Positions 7,045 through 52,530 of a DNA stretch of 64,000 nt are shown piece by piece (position 1 is the first letter of the stretch; every line of letters begins with the position of its first letter). The stretch spans positions 1-64,000 of the forward strand of contig JARXWK010000010.1 of NCBI GenBank assembly GCA_029916745.1, written 5' to 3'. Under the pieces are notes generated by a model that saw only the letters and a program-made list of their open reading frames with translations, was not told where the DNA came from and searched no databases. Source of the DNA: Dysgonomonadaceae bacterium PH5-43. Lineage in GTDB: Bacteria > Bacteroidota > Bacteroidia > Bacteroidales > Azobacteroidaceae. The translations under genes and the position numbers were made by a program.

Positions 7045-7150
7045 GAACTAAGAACTAAGAGTGAAGAACTAAGAGTTAGTGTCGCAAAGCGGCAATACAC
7101 GCTTCGCGCCCATTCTTAGTTCTTAGTTCTTAGTTCTTCACTCTTAGTTT
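7045..7150. repeat. Intergenic inverted-repeat element, family A (copy 1)
   Basis: Left arm 7045-7079 is made of repeated AACTAAGA words; right arm 7113-7150 is the reverse complement (CTTAGTTCTTAGTTCTTCAC). The centre carries GCAAAGCGG and CGCTTCGCG words. A second copy sits at 19576-19686 and a half copy at 62107-62153. It lies directly downstream of the OPT transporter gene and could act as its terminator. Confidence 0.75.
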
Positions 7151-9145
7151 TTATCTTTTAGCTCTTAAGCTGTCCCAAGTTAGGTAAGCAATAAGGGCAA
7201 CATAAACCAATACTGCAACCCATTGCGAGCCTACTTTCTCTAACCAAGTTTCGTTTAAGAAGTCGAATCCAGCAAAGCGTATAGCAACGCTTACTACTCC
7301 CATTAAAGCACCACCAGCTATAAAGCCAGAAGCAAGCAGAGTTCCTCTATCAAGGCGAGCTTTATTAACTGCTTCGTCTTTACTGCGAGAGCTTACAAAC
7401 CAAGCTATTGCACCTCCAATCATTAAAGGAAGATTTAGTTCTATAGGAATAAACATTCCAAGAGCAAAAGCCAATGCAGGTATTTTAAGGAAATAAAGAA
7501 TAATAGCTATAACAGCTCCTATGCCATAAAGCAACCAAGGCGCACCAGCTCCCGACATAAGAGGATCAATAACAGCGGCCATAGCATTTGCTTGTGGAGC
7601 AACTAAACTGTTGTCGCCCGTAAATCCATAAGTTTTGTTAAGTATCATAATAACACCAGCAACGGTAGCTGCCGATACTATTGCACCTAAAAATTTCCAA
7701 CCTTCTTGCTTGGCAGGCGTAGTGCCTAACCAATATCCTATCTTTAAGTCGGTAATAAATCCTCCTGCCATAGACAAAGCGGTGCAAACAACGCCTCCCA
7801 TAATAAGGGCGGCTAACATACCAGAAGTACCTTTTAGTCCTACGGCTACAAGAACTACCGAAGCAAGAATAAGAGTCATTAAAGTCATACCAGAAACTGG
7901 GTTAGTTCCAACAATAGCGATAGCATTAGCCGCCACTGTTGTAAACAAGAATGCTATAACGGTTACTAATAGCCAACCAACCAATGCGTATAGTATATTG
8001 TGTATAACTCCGAAATAAAAGAATGCAAGAATAACAAGAAGAGTGATTACACTGGCTATAGAAATAAACTTCATCGAAAGGTCGCGTTGAGTACGTTTAA
8101 CTTCTTTGTTAACATCAGAGTCTTTGCCTTTAAGTTCTTTGCCAGCTAATCCGACAGCACTTTTTATTACTCCCCAAGAGTTGATAATTCCTATTACTCC
8201 CGCCATCGCTATTCCACCTATACCAACAGAGCGAGCATATTCTTTGAATATCATTTCGGGTTCCATATCTCCAATAGTTGTTGTGATATTAGGATTCCAC
8301 ATATTTAAGACTTCGCCTCCCCATATCATATTCATTATAGGAATAACCAAGAACCATACAAGAAAAGAACCACAACAGATAATTGTAGCATATTTCAAAC
8401 CAACAATATAACCAAGTCCGAGTACGGCAGCTCCTGAGTTTACTTTGAATACAAACTTAAACTTCTCGGCAATAGTTTCGCCGAAAGGAAGTATACGAGA
8501 AGATATAACCTCGTTCCACCAACCGAATGTAGCAGCAATAAAGTCGTACAAACCTCCGATAAGCCCGGCAAAGATTAATGGCTTAGCCTGACTTCCACCT
8601 TTTTCTCCAGAAATAAGAACTTGTGTAGTTGCTGTAGCTTCAGGAAATGGATACTTGCCGTGCATATCTTTTACAAAGTATTTACGGAATGGAATAAGGA
8701 ATAATATACCCAAAACACCACCAAGTGCAGAACTGAAAAATACTTGCCAGAAGTTTACCGCCATATCGGGATACTTGGCTTGAAGAATATAAATAGCAGG
8801 AAGTGTGAAGATAGCACCTGCTACTATAACTCCCGAACTTGAGCCTATCGACTGTATTATAACATTTTCACCTAAAGCATTTTTTCGTTTTAACGAGCTT
8901 GATAATCCTACGGCAATAATAGCAATAGGTATTGCGGCTTCAAATACTTGTCCTACCTTGAGACCGAGGTATGCGGCGGCGGCAGAAAACAAAACTGCCA
9001 TTAAGATTCCCCAGATAACCGACCAAGGGGTTACTTCCTTATAGGTCTTGTTATGCGACATTACGGGTTCGTACTCTTCTCCTGGTTTTAACTCTCGGTT
9101 AGCATTATCGGGCAATCCGGGAAGCTTTTCTGTGTCTTTGTTCAT
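7151..9145 (-). CDS. OPT-family oligopeptide transporter
   Basis: Inner-membrane secondary transporter of the OPT/YSL superfamily, which moves small peptides or metal chelates into the cell with protons. 664 residues with roughly 15-16 hydrophobic segments, the normal size for bacterial members. Family marks seen: TPWSVIWGILMAVLFSAAAAYLGLKVGQVFEAAIP near the N terminus (residues 40-75), GKYPFPEATATTQVLISGEKGG (about 160-180), SWGVIKSA, and the NAIAIVGTNPVSGMT segment. A short polar N-terminal tail precedes the first helix. It has its own promoter (9181-9211) and reads away from recR. The substrate is not readable from the sequence. Confidence 0.92.
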   Translation of the reverse strand: MNKDTEKLPGLPDNANRELKPGEEYEPVMSHNKTYKEVTPWSVIWGILMAVLFSAAAAYLGLKVGQVFEAAIPIAIIAVGLSSSLKRKNALGENVIIQSIGSSSGVIVAGAIFTLPAIYILQAKYPDMAVNFWQVFFSSALGGVLGILFLIPFRKYFVKDMHGKYPFPEATATTQVLISGEKGGSQAKPLIFAGLIGGLYDFIAATFGWWNEVISSRILPFGETIAEKFKFVFKVNSGAAVLGLGYIVGLKYATIICCGSFLVWFLVIPIMNMIWGGEVLNMWNPNITTTIGDMEPEMIFKEYARSVGIGGIAMAGVIGIINSWGVIKSAVGLAGKELKGKDSDVNKEVKRTQRDLSMKFISIASVITLLVILAFFYFGVIHNILYALVGWLLVTVIAFLFTTVAANAIAIVGTNPVSGMTLMTLILASVVLVAVGLKGTSGMLAALIMGGVVCTALSMAGGFITDLKIGYWLGTTPAKQEGWKFLGAIVSAATVAGVIMILNKTYGFTGDNSLVAPQANAMAAVIDPLMSGAGAPWLLYGIGAVIAIILYFLKIPALAFALGMFIPIELNLPLMIGGAIAWFVSSRSKDEAVNKARLDRGTLLASGFIAGGALMGVVSVAIRFAGFDFLNETWLEKVGSQWVAVLVYVALIAYLTWDSLRAKR

Positions 9146-19575: not shown

Positions 19576-19686
19576 GAGAACTAAGAACTAAGAGTGAAGA
19601 ACTAAGAATTAATGAGAAGAACTAAGAGTTGGCGCGAAGTGGCGCAAAGCGACTCTAATACGCTTCGCCTTCACTCTTAGTTCTTA
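19576..19686. repeat. Intergenic inverted-repeat element, family A (copy 2)
   Basis: Left part 19576-19630 has repeated AACTAAGA words and right part 19669-19686 the complementary CACTCTTAGTTCTTA. Between them are GGCGCAAAGCGAC and ACGCTTCGCC, as in the copy at 7045-7150. Confidence 0.75.
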
Positions 19687-19697
19687 TTGCTACGTTT

Positions 19698-19852
19698 GTT
19701 TCACCCGTGTGAAACAGGTTGTTTCAATAGGGTGAAACGAGTTGTTTCAGTTAGGTGAAACAAGTAATTTCAGTAGTGTGAAACAAGTAGTTTCAGTAGT
19801 GTGAAACAAATAGTTTCAGTAGTATGAAACAAGTAGTTTCAAAGTATGAAAG
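19698..19852. repeat. Seven-unit palindrome array with exact 23-bp period
   Basis: GTTTCA (or ATTTCA) starts at 19698, 19721, 19744, 19767, 19790, 19813 and 19836, every 23 bases. In units 1-6 each is followed after 6 bases by TGAAAC, making an 18-bp palindrome with a 5-base linker (AGGTT, GAGTT, AAGTA, AAGTA, AAATA, AAGTA order approximate). Unit 7 is shortened and ends TGAAAG. Units 4-6 share the GTAGTG-type centre; units 1-3 differ in the centre only, so the half-sites are what is conserved. Two lone TGAAAC words precede the array at 19540 and 19561. Not coding. Confidence 0.9.
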
Positions 19853-34159: not shown

Positions 34160-34516
34160 TTACTCGTTTTTTATTAGTTTCGACAAAACATCGTCTAAGG
34201 GGATAGACTGTTTCTTCATAACTTTTACTATTTTTTTGCCTTCTTCTGATAAAGAAAAGATCATTTTCCGCTTATCTTCTGTTCCTATTTCACGTATTAT
34301 CCAAGCTCTTTCTTCTACCGATGTAATAATTTTGGATACACGAGAGTTAGAAAGACCTATAAATTCTGCTATTTCGAATGCCGAGTGTGGTTTCCCATCT
34401 TTCATACAGCACAAAAGCATAGCTTCGTTTATTGTCATATTAAACTTTTTGACAAACTCTTTCTCGAATGAATATAATGCTTTGTATATATCCTTTATCT
34501 GACAAATTAATTCCAT
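34160..34516 (-). CDS. MarR-family regulator
   Basis: 118-residue winged-helix regulator. FNMTINEAMLLCCMKDGKPHSAFEIAEFIGLSNSRVSKIITSVEERAWIIREIGTEDKRKMIFSLSEEGKKIVKVMKKQ spans residues 25-102, with the DKRKMIFSLSEEGKK wing typical for MarR. Shorter than usual at both ends. Two cysteines (CCMKD) at 37-38 in helix 2 and one near the start could allow thiol or persulfide sensing, which would fit the sulfur-transfer gene that follows 60 bases downstream, but this is inference. Promoter at 34578-34547. Confidence 0.88.
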   Translation of the reverse strand: MELICQIKDIYKALYSFEKEFVKKFNMTINEAMLLCCMKDGKPHSAFEIAEFIGLSNSRVSKIITSVEERAWIIREIGTEDKRKMIFSLSEEGKKIVKVMKKQSIPLDDVLSKLIKNE

Positions 34517-34546
34517 TGGTTATATTTTCTAATATGAATTATTTTG

Positions 34547-34578
34547 CAAAGGAAATAATATTTTTTGAAATAAACAAA
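34547..34578 (-). promoter_or_regulatory. Promoter of the marR-sulfurtransferase operon
   Basis: Minus strand: TTTG (34578-34575), 20 bases, TTCCTTTG (34554-34547). The -7 box deviates from TAnnTTTG in the same way as the efflux operon promoter at 19372. Confidence 0.6.
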
Positions 34579-34632
34579 TAGGATCATTAGTAAACTTTAT
34601 CCGATTAGAATAAACAACCTCAAATACAGTAC

Positions 34633-35133
34633 TTTATAAAGCACAAAAATAAAAGCTTCACTTAGGGTCTTCTCTCTTAGTAGAGACCCCTCTTCTCTCT
34701 TAGTAGATAGGCGAGGTGTCTCTACTAAGAACGGCGGGGTGTCTTAAGTATTAAGGCGGGGCGGTTATACTAAGAGCGATATCGGGTCTCTACTAAGAGC
34801 GACGAGGTGTCTCTACTAAGAACGACAGGGGGTATCTAATAACAAGCAATTCGCCTTTCTACTAAGAGCGATTAGAGGGTTCTCCTAAGAGTGGTGGAGT
34901 GCTTCATAAGAGTGATATAGCTGTCCATTTGTCCACACGCTAAATTTTACGCTCTTCTTCGAGAGTTAAGTATTTACAGATAGTTGCCTATTGGGATAAT
35001 TAGCTTACACTCTTGCCTTAGTTCTTAAACCAAGCAAAGGGTCGATAATGTCAAAATAATAGAATATAGAGAAGTCTTGTGAAAATAAGTAAGTATAGAA
35101 AATGTCGAGAATTGGGGTGAAATAGAAAAAAAG
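34633..35133 (+). repeat. Large intergenic element C, copy 1: 22-23-bp array plus unique tail
   Basis: Non-coding. From 34650 to about 34920 there are about eleven degenerate units of 22-23 bp around CTACTAAGAGCGA (clearest at 34719, 34764, 34786, 34809, 34856, 34879); the first two units are inverted (TCTTAGTAGA). A roughly 210-260-base tail follows without repeats. The entire element is matched, in reverse complement, by 51881-52384, with scattered differences and small indels. The gap 34517-35181 contains otherwise only the marR promoter. Confidence 0.92.
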
Positions 35134-35181
35134 TTCTACTGGACAATAATAATTTTTATTGCAAAGTTATGTAAATAAAGT

Positions 35182-36687
35182 TTACGCTCGTTTCTTTCTT
35201 TTATATTTCTTTCGGTACACAATGTATCCTGATATAAGTAAAATAAGAATAAATAATCCAGAAAAGAAAGTGTAGGTGTCGCCAGATAAGCCTAAAGGAT
35301 AGGCGTATGCTCTTCCTGTGTGAATTTCGAGAGCAGCGTGATAAAGTGAAATACGTCCTTTGCCTATTTCTTCTGGCATAGGAGAAAAACTGTTTTGAGA
35401 ATTGATGCCAGTAGCTCCTTTATTGTATTCGAATATTACTTGTTTTTCAAAATCATTACTATATCCACTTATTGGAGTTGAGGATACCGGTCGTCCTCGA
35501 GTTGTGCCAATTACTGGTTGTTTTGTATAAAGGTTAAATATAAAATCATATTGCCTATTCCAAGTGAATAGCCCACTAAATGAACCAACAAGCCATCCAT
35601 TAGATGTAGGCTCTAAGACGGTTATACCCATAACGCTTACTGGAGGAGTAATAATAACTTTTTCAGGAGTGGCTTCAAAGTTACTTAAAGAATAAAATCC
35701 ATCGGAAGTATAGAGTAGCCAATGTTGTTGTTGCGTGTCATAGCGTATTATTCGTAGTTTGTCTTGCCAAGGGTTGCTACTATTAAGTATGGTACATTTC
35801 GGATTGTTTATTTTATTCTTGATAATAGCAATTAGCAAAGGAGGACGAAGAAACATACCAGACAAAGTAATTAATAAAAAGAATAGGATAAAAAACACTC
35901 CGATTTTGTTATGCCACTTGATAGAGCTTTTCATTGTCTTTATTGCCGAATGAGCAGATAGTTCTTGTTTCTTTCTTCGTTTAACAACTCTTGGTAAAAA
36001 AGAATAAAGAATGCCAGTAACTGAAATTATTATTAGCAAAACACCTAATAAATCAACAAATAATTGTCCGCCTATGCCGAATAGTTTACCACTATGAAGT
36101 AACCAAAAAGTACGGAACAGGCTTGTTTTTGCCTCGTAATCGGTGGGCTTTAATAACTCTGTTTTATGAAAATCAGAAAAAGGAGCAACCGAATAGTGTA
36201 AGTGAGATCGAGTTATAATAGCTAATGTATCATTGTGATATGTTATATCGCTTATTCGTTCGTTTATTTTTGCACGTTTTGTTATCTTTTCCCAGTTATT
36301 GTTTGCACTTAAAGAGTAAAGATTAAAGGTTGTTATAGCATAGGTATTGTTATTGTTAGTTCTGATAATACGGTTTGTAATTTGGTTGTCGGCTCCTTTG
36401 TCTATCCCGTTGGTAAAAGACGAGAAATTACTACGAAGCGAATCGGTTAACCAAATGCCACTTCCTCCATATAATAAGATAGAATCTGGAGATATTTTTA
36501 ATGTTCCTTTTACTGAAGCATTGTTCCAATTGTTGTAATGAAAGTTTTTCGGGAGTAACTTACGTGAAAGATCAATTTTAGAGACTGTTTTACGGTGGTT
36601 GAGAATAATTCCCGATATGGAAAACATTATTAAGAAAAAGGCAAGCAACAATCCAGCCCATTTATGGTATTTGCGAAAAAACTTCAT
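35182..36687 (-). CDS. PepSY-associated transmembrane protein
   Basis: 501-residue inner-membrane protein of the PepSY_TM family, often linked to iron or siderophore reduction. Four hydrophobic segments: WAGLLLAFFLIMFSISGIILNH (about 10-31, with conserved H after), LFVDLLGVLLIIISVTGILYSFLPRVV (about 205-230), IGVFFILFFLLITLSGMFL (about 260-280) and FFSGLFILILLISGYIVYRKKYKRKK at the C terminus. Between them are large periplasmic parts; the second (about 285-455) has repeated beta strands (WLLYTSDGFYSLSNFEA, WLVGSFSGLFTWNRQ), unlike short PepSY proteins. HxxxG-type start MKFFRKYHKWAGLLLAFF is diagnostic. Divergent from the Crp/Fnr gene. Confidence 0.85.
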   Translation of the reverse strand: MKFFRKYHKWAGLLLAFFLIMFSISGIILNHRKTVSKIDLSRKLLPKNFHYNNWNNASVKGTLKISPDSILLYGGSGIWLTDSLRSNFSSFTNGIDKGADNQITNRIIRTNNNNTYAITTFNLYSLSANNNWEKITKRAKINERISDITYHNDTLAIITRSHLHYSVAPFSDFHKTELLKPTDYEAKTSLFRTFWLLHSGKLFGIGGQLFVDLLGVLLIIISVTGILYSFLPRVVKRRKKQELSAHSAIKTMKSSIKWHNKIGVFFILFFLLITLSGMFLRPPLLIAIIKNKINNPKCTILNSSNPWQDKLRIIRYDTQQQHWLLYTSDGFYSLSNFEATPEKVIITPPVSVMGITVLEPTSNGWLVGSFSGLFTWNRQYDFIFNLYTKQPVIGTTRGRPVSSTPISGYSNDFEKQVIFEYNKGATGINSQNSFSPMPEEIGKGRISLYHAALEIHTGRAYAYPLGLSGDTYTFFSGLFILILLISGYIVYRKKYKRKKRA

Positions 36688-51731: not shown

Positions 51732-51880
51732 AATGTAATGTTTGTTTTTGTGCTTTTTTATCGTACTAACGACAAAATTAGTTACATTTAATTGGATTTC
51801 CTAACGAATTTCTAAATATATTTCCGTAGATAAAACCAAAACTGGTAACTATCCAGCGAAGGTTTTGTCTTTATTTTTTC

Positions 51881-52384
51881 TATTTCACTCAAATTCTCAA
51901 CATTTTCTCTACTTACTTATTTTCACAAGATTTCTATTTTCTCTATTATTTTGATATTGTAGATCCTTTGCTTAATTTAAGAAAGGAGGCAAGAGAGTAA
52001 GCAAACTACCCACAATAATCAACTATCTGAAATTTCTTAACTCTCGGAGAAGAGCGTGAAAGTTAGCGAGTGGATAAATGGACGGCTCTATCTCTATCAA
52101 GAAGAGTTCCGATGCTCTTAGGAGAACCCTCTAATCGCTCTTAGTAGATGGGTGAGCGGCTTCTTAGTAGATACCCCTTGTCGCTCTTAGTAGATATCCC
52201 TCACCTTTGTTAGTAGATAGGGGAGCTGTTTCTTGGTAGAGACCCGATGCAGCTCTTAGTATAACGGTCTCGTCTTTATACTTAAGACACCCCGCCGTTC
52301 TTAGTAGAGAGACCTCGTCGATCTACTAAGAGAGAGCAGGGGTCTCTTAGTAGAGAGAAGACCCTAAGTGAAGCTTTGTGTTTC
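51881..52384 (-). repeat. Large intergenic element C, copy 2 (inverted relative to copy 1)
   Basis: Read on the minus strand it begins near 52384 (AAGCTTCACTTAGGGTCT at 52372-52355), goes through a 22-23-bp unit array to about 52085, and then a tail matching that of copy 1, e.g. GAGAGTTAAG, TCAGATAGTTG, AAGCAAAGG and CTTGTGAAAATAAGTAAGTA. Some units are inverted relative to copy 1 (first unit CTCTACTAAGAG versus TCTCTTAGTAGAG), possible since the unit is near-palindromic. Non-coding; gap 51732-52779 is the longest in the window. Confidence 0.92.
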
Positions 52385-52385
52385 A

Positions 52386-52530
52386 CAAGTTAAAAACTAA
52401 AAACTAAAAGATAAAAGTTAAGTTACCCAAAGGGTAAAAATTCCATAGCCGTACGGCGAGCGAAGCGTTGCCTACGGGGATAGAGAAAGCTAAAAGTTAA
52501 CAACTAAAAGATAAAAGTTGGCGTAAAACG
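52386..52530. repeat. Intergenic repeat element, family B (copy 2)
   Basis: Flanks with AACTAAAAGATAAAAGTT at 52396-52420 and again at 52500-52520. The core GGCGAGCGAAGCGTTGCCTA at 52455 matches 28120 and 61988. It abuts element C copy 2. From 52531 to 52691 nothing is recognised except a 30-bp repeat (52642-52670) shared with 5168. Confidence 0.7.

Follow-up and report, generated by a model that had tools for sequence, protein, structure and literature searches.

The window analysed here, a 64,000-nucleotide stretch of one contig, contains two long non-coding elements in opposite orientation. Their parts and immediate surroundings are as follows.

34594 to 34652, + strand: 5′ end extension (ACTTTATCCGATTAGAATAAACAACCTCAAATACAG...), common to loci L041, L044, L049, L051 and L052 and partly to L109
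Outer end of 34594 to 34652, + strand: degenerate terminal repeat
34652 to 34690, + strand: head (AAAGCTTCACTTAGGGTCTTCTCTC...), the start of the block found at 87 loci
34675 to 34905, + strand: array, ∼10 imperfect tandem units of 23 bp (core TCTACTAAGA), with partial inversion among the first ones
34906 to 35132, + strand: conserved tail (..GTCCATTTGTCCA..CTTCGAGAGTTAAG..GTGAAAATAAGTAAG..GTGAAATAGAAAAAA)
35133 to 35152, + strand: 3′ end GTTCTACTGGACAATAATAA, a degenerate form of GTTTTATCGGACAGCAATAA, the terminal repeat of the presumed IS4-family element on contig C26
51846 to 51873, − strand: 3′ terminus of the second copy (AATAAAGACAAAACCTTCGCTGGATAGTTAC), of the type more usual in long forms
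51874 to 52384, − strand: second long copy, with head, array and tail
52385 to 52500, − strand: upstream repeat modules beside the second copy (CCCCGTAGGCAACGCTTCGCTCGCCGTACGGCTATGG.. and TTTTAGTTTTTAACTT heptamers), common to other long copies and present elsewhere too

We compared positions 34401-35400 with the whole window by BLASTN. Positions 34652-35131 (+) matched 51874-52377 (−) with 403/504 identities (80%), 24 gaps, and E = 1e-130. The first-pass annotation had aligned the two segments over their full length; this holds for the head, array, and tail (∼480–500 bp), and the first 19 bases (34633-34651) fall outside the match. These bases are unmatched in the second copy, yet they are part of a longer 5′ end common to six other loci. 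Because the similarity spans head and tail as well as the array, it is more than a likeness of tandem units, and the original observation stands. Neither copy has a long open frame (the longest start-to-stop frames are 57 and 78 bp, and there is no transposase gene in either), and neither touches a tRNA, as had been noted. The earlier contrast with REP sequences and IS remnants was also sound: the unit is a nonpalindromic block of 480–500 bp and not a palindrome of 20–40 bp, and blastn and tblastn comparison of the cores with the intact C26 element and its transposase, made to detect remnants of it, returned chance-level matches only. The description of a long, diverged, non-coding unit that is dispersed was thus borne out, now at many loci. 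In contrast, the statement that terminal inverted repeats are absent has to be corrected: the copy at 34.6 kb carries both the longer 5′ end and the IS4-like 3′ end, at 34594 (ACTTTATCCGATTAGAA) and 35152 (GTTCTACTGGACAATAATAA), so degenerate terminal repeats do exist, and they are better preserved in other copies.

The two elements, described initially as a pair, are members of a family with nearly ninety copies. We examined the genome of origin (2.54 Mb in 46 contigs) by searches and by inspection of individual stretches. BLAST scored 40 places, full or partial, of which 34 were essentially full length; the 33 of these other than the query were 74–82% identical to it. Stray occurrences of the 14-mer TCTACTAAGAGCGA revealed a second form, in which head and array are alike and the tail is missing, and a profile of the head found ∼80 near-full copies together with several fragments. 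Among the loci retrieved, 87 had a recognizable 5′ end, and these were divided into 35 long forms (head, 23-bp array, and conserved tail) and 52 short forms (head and array), so that ∼40% of copies carry the tail. L072, classed among these 52, is an internally deleted long form, which leaves ∼51 true short forms. By our estimate, the family makes up ∼32 kb (1.3%) of the genome. Copies lie at unrelated intergenic sites in either orientation, with ORFs flanking both sides at every locus that is not cut by a contig end. This is a real and sizeable repeat family, and it is of a known kind.

The head begins with AAAGCTTCACTTAGGG, which is preceded in many copies by AAAATGC; next come imperfect units of 23 bp with the core TCTACTAAGA. 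The most frequent core-to-core spacing, by a wide margin, is exactly 23 bp (393 intervals), and the core lengths of long forms cluster near 455, 478, 502, and 524 bp; array length varies in steps of whole units. At a fixed position, the first two units may point either way (the first unit reads CTACTAAGAGA in 54 copies and CTTAGTAGAGA in 22), a pattern that inversion of a short loop in a hairpin would predict. The tail, ∼240 bp long, contains long invariant blocks. The head of a long form is preceded by any one of several further repeats of the genome; these 5′ flanks are modular, with four or more kinds distinguished. Immediately 5′ of long copies there are often runs of heptamers (TTAGTTCT / AAGAACTAAG) and hairpins of REP-like type (CCGTAGGCAACGCTTCGCTCGCCGTACGG), both of them dispersed repeats; in the window, they occur at 7050-7170, 19577-19680, and 52385-52500.

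Several other repeats accompany the family. Another 23-bp array, built of palindromic units (GTTTCA..TGAAAC), occupies 19707-19841 of the window beside a tRNA-Ser. Related arrays in L137, L138, L140, L141, L142, and L144 have the IS4-like end TATTGCTGTCCGGTAAAACTTTAAC at one of their borders. Two chimeras were seen: in L091 the family tail is joined directly to a GTTTCA-array element, and in L141 (reverse complement, ∼1950-2025) it is joined to the IS4-like end of such an element. GATA tetranucleotide microsatellites lie near the 3′ side of short copies (L080, ∼2200-2260; L089, ∼2560-2660), and a sequence beginning CGTGAGTTCGATATAAGATTAGAATAAAGCAAGC.. is common to three contig ends beside short copies (L083, L089, and L129), where it is probably a further repeat at which the assembly stops. 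Two divergent copies, L134 and L135, have units of the TCTCCTAAGAGAGACGGGG type and are possibly an older subfamily.

The idea that a copy might be transcribed as one RNA found no support in sequence. The copy at 34.6 kb has a somewhat low minimum free energy (z = −2.15, + strand), which would suit an element encoding a structured non-coding RNA, but minus-strand and DNA z-scores were similar. The long stem of this copy is also removed in the many copies whose first units are reversed. Alignment of 31 copies with RNAalifold gave a consensus of −22.9 kcal/mol over 553 columns, with covariation (a two-sided change) in 1 of 59 consensus pairs, and Rfam returned no family at either window copy, tRNAs being the sole matches. 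With conserved structure unsupported by z-scores and covariation alike, we regard an RNA gene as very improbable.

To describe variation among copies, we used 31 aligned long forms and the 139 columns in which a second base occurs in at least four copies. Linkage (r2) fell from 0.30 at 1–2 bp to 0.05 beyond 80 bp, close to the shuffled level of 0.033, while the fraction of column pairs showing all four gametes rose with distance from 0.35 to 0.82. Distances between heads were uncorrelated with distances between tails (Mantel r = 0.06, P = 0.23). Variants are common to copies in short tracts, which indicates that the copies evolve as a recombining pool. Neither simple history fits: a star-like burst predicts mostly private variants, and tree-like descent predicts linkage along the element, and neither pattern was seen. 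The simplest reading is that copies exchange short tracts, presumably by gene conversion, with possible additional contributions from recurrent mutation and from shifted units within the array.

We then examined the ends of the copies. A longer 5′ end (..TTATCCGATTAGAATAAACAACCTC..) is present at seven loci, including the 34633 window copy. A 3′ end like GTTTTATCGGACAGCAATA occurs at five of these seven and at 8 of the 80 others (P = 6e-4), and it resembles the terminal repeat of an element preserved intact on contig C26. The protein of the C26 element (404 aa) combines DDE_Tnp_1 (PF01609) with DUF4372 (PF14294), and we take the element to be a member of the IS4 family. It has the terminal inverted repeat ATTACTGTCCGATAAAA and is flanked on either side by the 10-bp direct repeat AGTTGAGAAT. 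The pattern of its terminal repeat gave 21 matches, among them solo elements of 135 bp and ∼50 bp, compared with none for the reversed control. The intact element is the single copy left, lies near an integrase gene, and may have arrived recently. The idea that every copy of the family has an IS4-like end was considered and rejected, as only a subset carries one: 3′ ends recognizably of this type are limited to 13 of the 87 loci, and at the 5′ end the likeness is confined to the surroundings of TCCGAT. The common terminus of long forms (GATAAAGCTTTCGCTGAATAGTTAC) bears a distant likeness to the IS4 end. Among the short forms, 17 of 52 end with the motif ACTAAGATTGTTTT (2.1 expected in shuffles), followed in some by ACTGGATAGCAATA, which is also like an IS end. 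No target-site duplication was found at the window copies, as the first-pass annotation had noted, or at any other copy of the family, including those with recognizable ends. Given this result and the few clear IS-like ends, we propose the IS4-family element only as a plausible candidate partner, judged by its terminal sequence.

In our assessment, the copies probably constitute a MITE-like, non-autonomous family that was mobilized in trans, with a transposase of IS4 type as the most likely mover, and that was later reshaped by erosion, changes in unit number, and gene conversion. Non-coding elements made of a head, a 23-bp minisatellite, and, in some, the ∼240-bp tail would have spread in this lineage by using a transposase supplied from elsewhere. 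The enzyme would most likely have been an IS4-family DDE transposase, the terminal repeat of which resembles the best preserved element ends. After the spread, most copies would have lost or eroded their ends, arrays would have grown and shrunk by whole units, and short tracts would have been swapped between copies through ectopic gene conversion. The elements look like small parasitic mobile elements, and that they spread by transposition is likely.

The same repeats could instead have been multiplied by recombination and segmental duplication among intergenic repeats, with no transposase involved and with the modules being separate repeats variously joined. The modular 5′ flanks, of which there are four kinds or more, would fit this, as would the strong mosaicism and the two chimeric tails, one joined to a different GTTTCA/TGAAAC array (L091) and the other to an IS4-type end (L141). 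However, the copies have a common head start and a few recurrent 3′ ends, and their 5′ and 3′ end types are associated. We therefore consider spread by recombination quite unlikely, and we favor transposition followed by exchange among the copies.

The family was sought in other genomes. BLAST found no copy in 99 relatives or in phages and plasmids, and the head profile found none in 40 congeners. The tail profile found none in 294 other Bacteroidales apart from one match (E = 8.8e-4, in G277, one of 295 genomes), which we discarded as no more than chance would give. An exact 20-mer of the tail, a strict pattern, was absent from GTDB contigs and IMG/VR, with the genome of origin excluded. By these sequence searches, the family is found so far in one genome only. 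The closest congeners have 89–91% of residues alike in one housekeeping protein, for which the best named match is a Candidatus Symbiothrix MAG (84%); because of this match, the genome probably belongs to a termite-gut lineage of Bacteroidales. At both window loci, the flanking genes are absent from the congeners, synteny is lost, or divergence is too great, so filled and empty sites could not be compared. In the literature, we found no description of the 23-bp-array family and nothing relevant on repeats in Symbiothrix genomes.

Long and short forms differ in gene context. Long forms occupy 13 divergent and 5 convergent gaps, and short forms 6 divergent and 18 convergent (Fisher P = 0.004). 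With element-free gaps ≥120 bp as the reference, short forms were in excess between convergent genes (P = 0.018) and long forms at divergent starts (P = 0.09). Because gene calls came from a simple ORF rule and multiple tests were performed, the tendency of short forms to lie mostly between convergent genes, and of long forms to lie more often between divergent ones, is suggestive only. Genes in Bacteroidota have the −7 promoter motif TAnnTTTG. This motif is not enriched in the long core (4 vs. 6.8 expected on one strand and 5 vs. 10.2 on the other) and is enriched in the resident DNA directly downstream (24 vs. 5.9 expected). By this test, long forms lie upstream of resident promoters and bring none, and the proposal that the tail carries a promoter was dropped. 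A strong hairpin (GGCAAGG..CCTTGCC) closes some short forms; of the 17 short ends with the ACTAAGATTGTTTT motif, only 5 have a strong one.

These data bear on whether the element is a host regulatory unit under selection (a mobile promoter, terminator, or insulator), with long forms acting upstream of genes and short forms serving as gene 3′ ends. Both context biases and the terminal hairpins agree with such a role, and promoter activity in Escherichia coli has been reported for the BrickBuilt elements of P. gingivalis (PMC4596501). Nevertheless, the −7 motif belongs to the resident DNA, most motif-bearing short ends are without a strong hairpin, purifying selection against insertions could yield the same context bias, and no copy occurs in the relatives searched. 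A host function is possible, to which the context points weakly, and selection for a regulatory unit appears unlikely as the explanation of the family. A related view, which we hold to be rather doubtful, is that the genome-wide recombining pool has had its two forms sorted to opposite contexts, the long ones upstream of genes and the short ones where convergent genes end, with a former parasite now supplying boundary or 3′-end elements to a few per cent of genes. We retain non-autonomous transposition as the preferred account.

The family can be placed among known systems. BOX and RUP of Streptococcus pneumoniae are likewise many-copy modular or mobile intergenic repeats, and BOX likewise has internal units variable in number; they differ from the present family in being unrelated in sequence and in having another unit size and another partner transposase. 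An IS982-derived MITE in Cardinium, the endosymbiont of Oedothorax gibbosus, offers a parallel in its lineage-specific, non-autonomous spread within a Bacteroidota symbiont and in the survival of the parental IS, although its parent is IS982 and the abstract of the study mentions no minisatellite (PMC9769881). The closest likeness is to BrickBuilt, in which spacer-free 23-nt tandem repeats lie between a leader and a tail, copies have both flanks, one, or neither and are always intergenic, arrays expand and contract by whole units, and the termini are short imperfect repeats; BrickBuilt is confined to P. gingivalis and its sister P. gulae, with 19 loci (PMC4596501). The present family shares the direct 23-bp repeats without spacers (393 spacings of exactly 23 bp), the head and tail around the array with some copies lacking one (tail in 35/87), the intergenic placement, the whole-unit length steps, and the restricted distribution. 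Unlike BrickBuilt, the 87 loci contain no match at ≤1 mismatch to the IS5-family terminal repeats GAGACCTTTGCA/TGCAAAGGTCTC; the best ends here resemble an IS4-family element, whereas those of BrickBuilt belong to the IS5 group. The family also has 87 loci compared with 19, and loss of the tail defines a major second form. No sequence match was found among the Bacteroidales sampled, in searches that did not target P. gingivalis by name. Because the plan is alike and the IS5-type terminal repeats are absent, we suggest by analogy that the family works like BrickBuilt, without assigning it membership.

The family would be a second example in Bacteroidales of a mobile element organized around a 23-bp minisatellite, here with other terminal repeats. 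A second case suggests that the combination recurs and is no mere accident in P. gingivalis. Because a single genome holds nearly ninety copies, the family also provides a natural sample for the study of exchange among dispersed non-coding repeats in a symbiont-type lineage.
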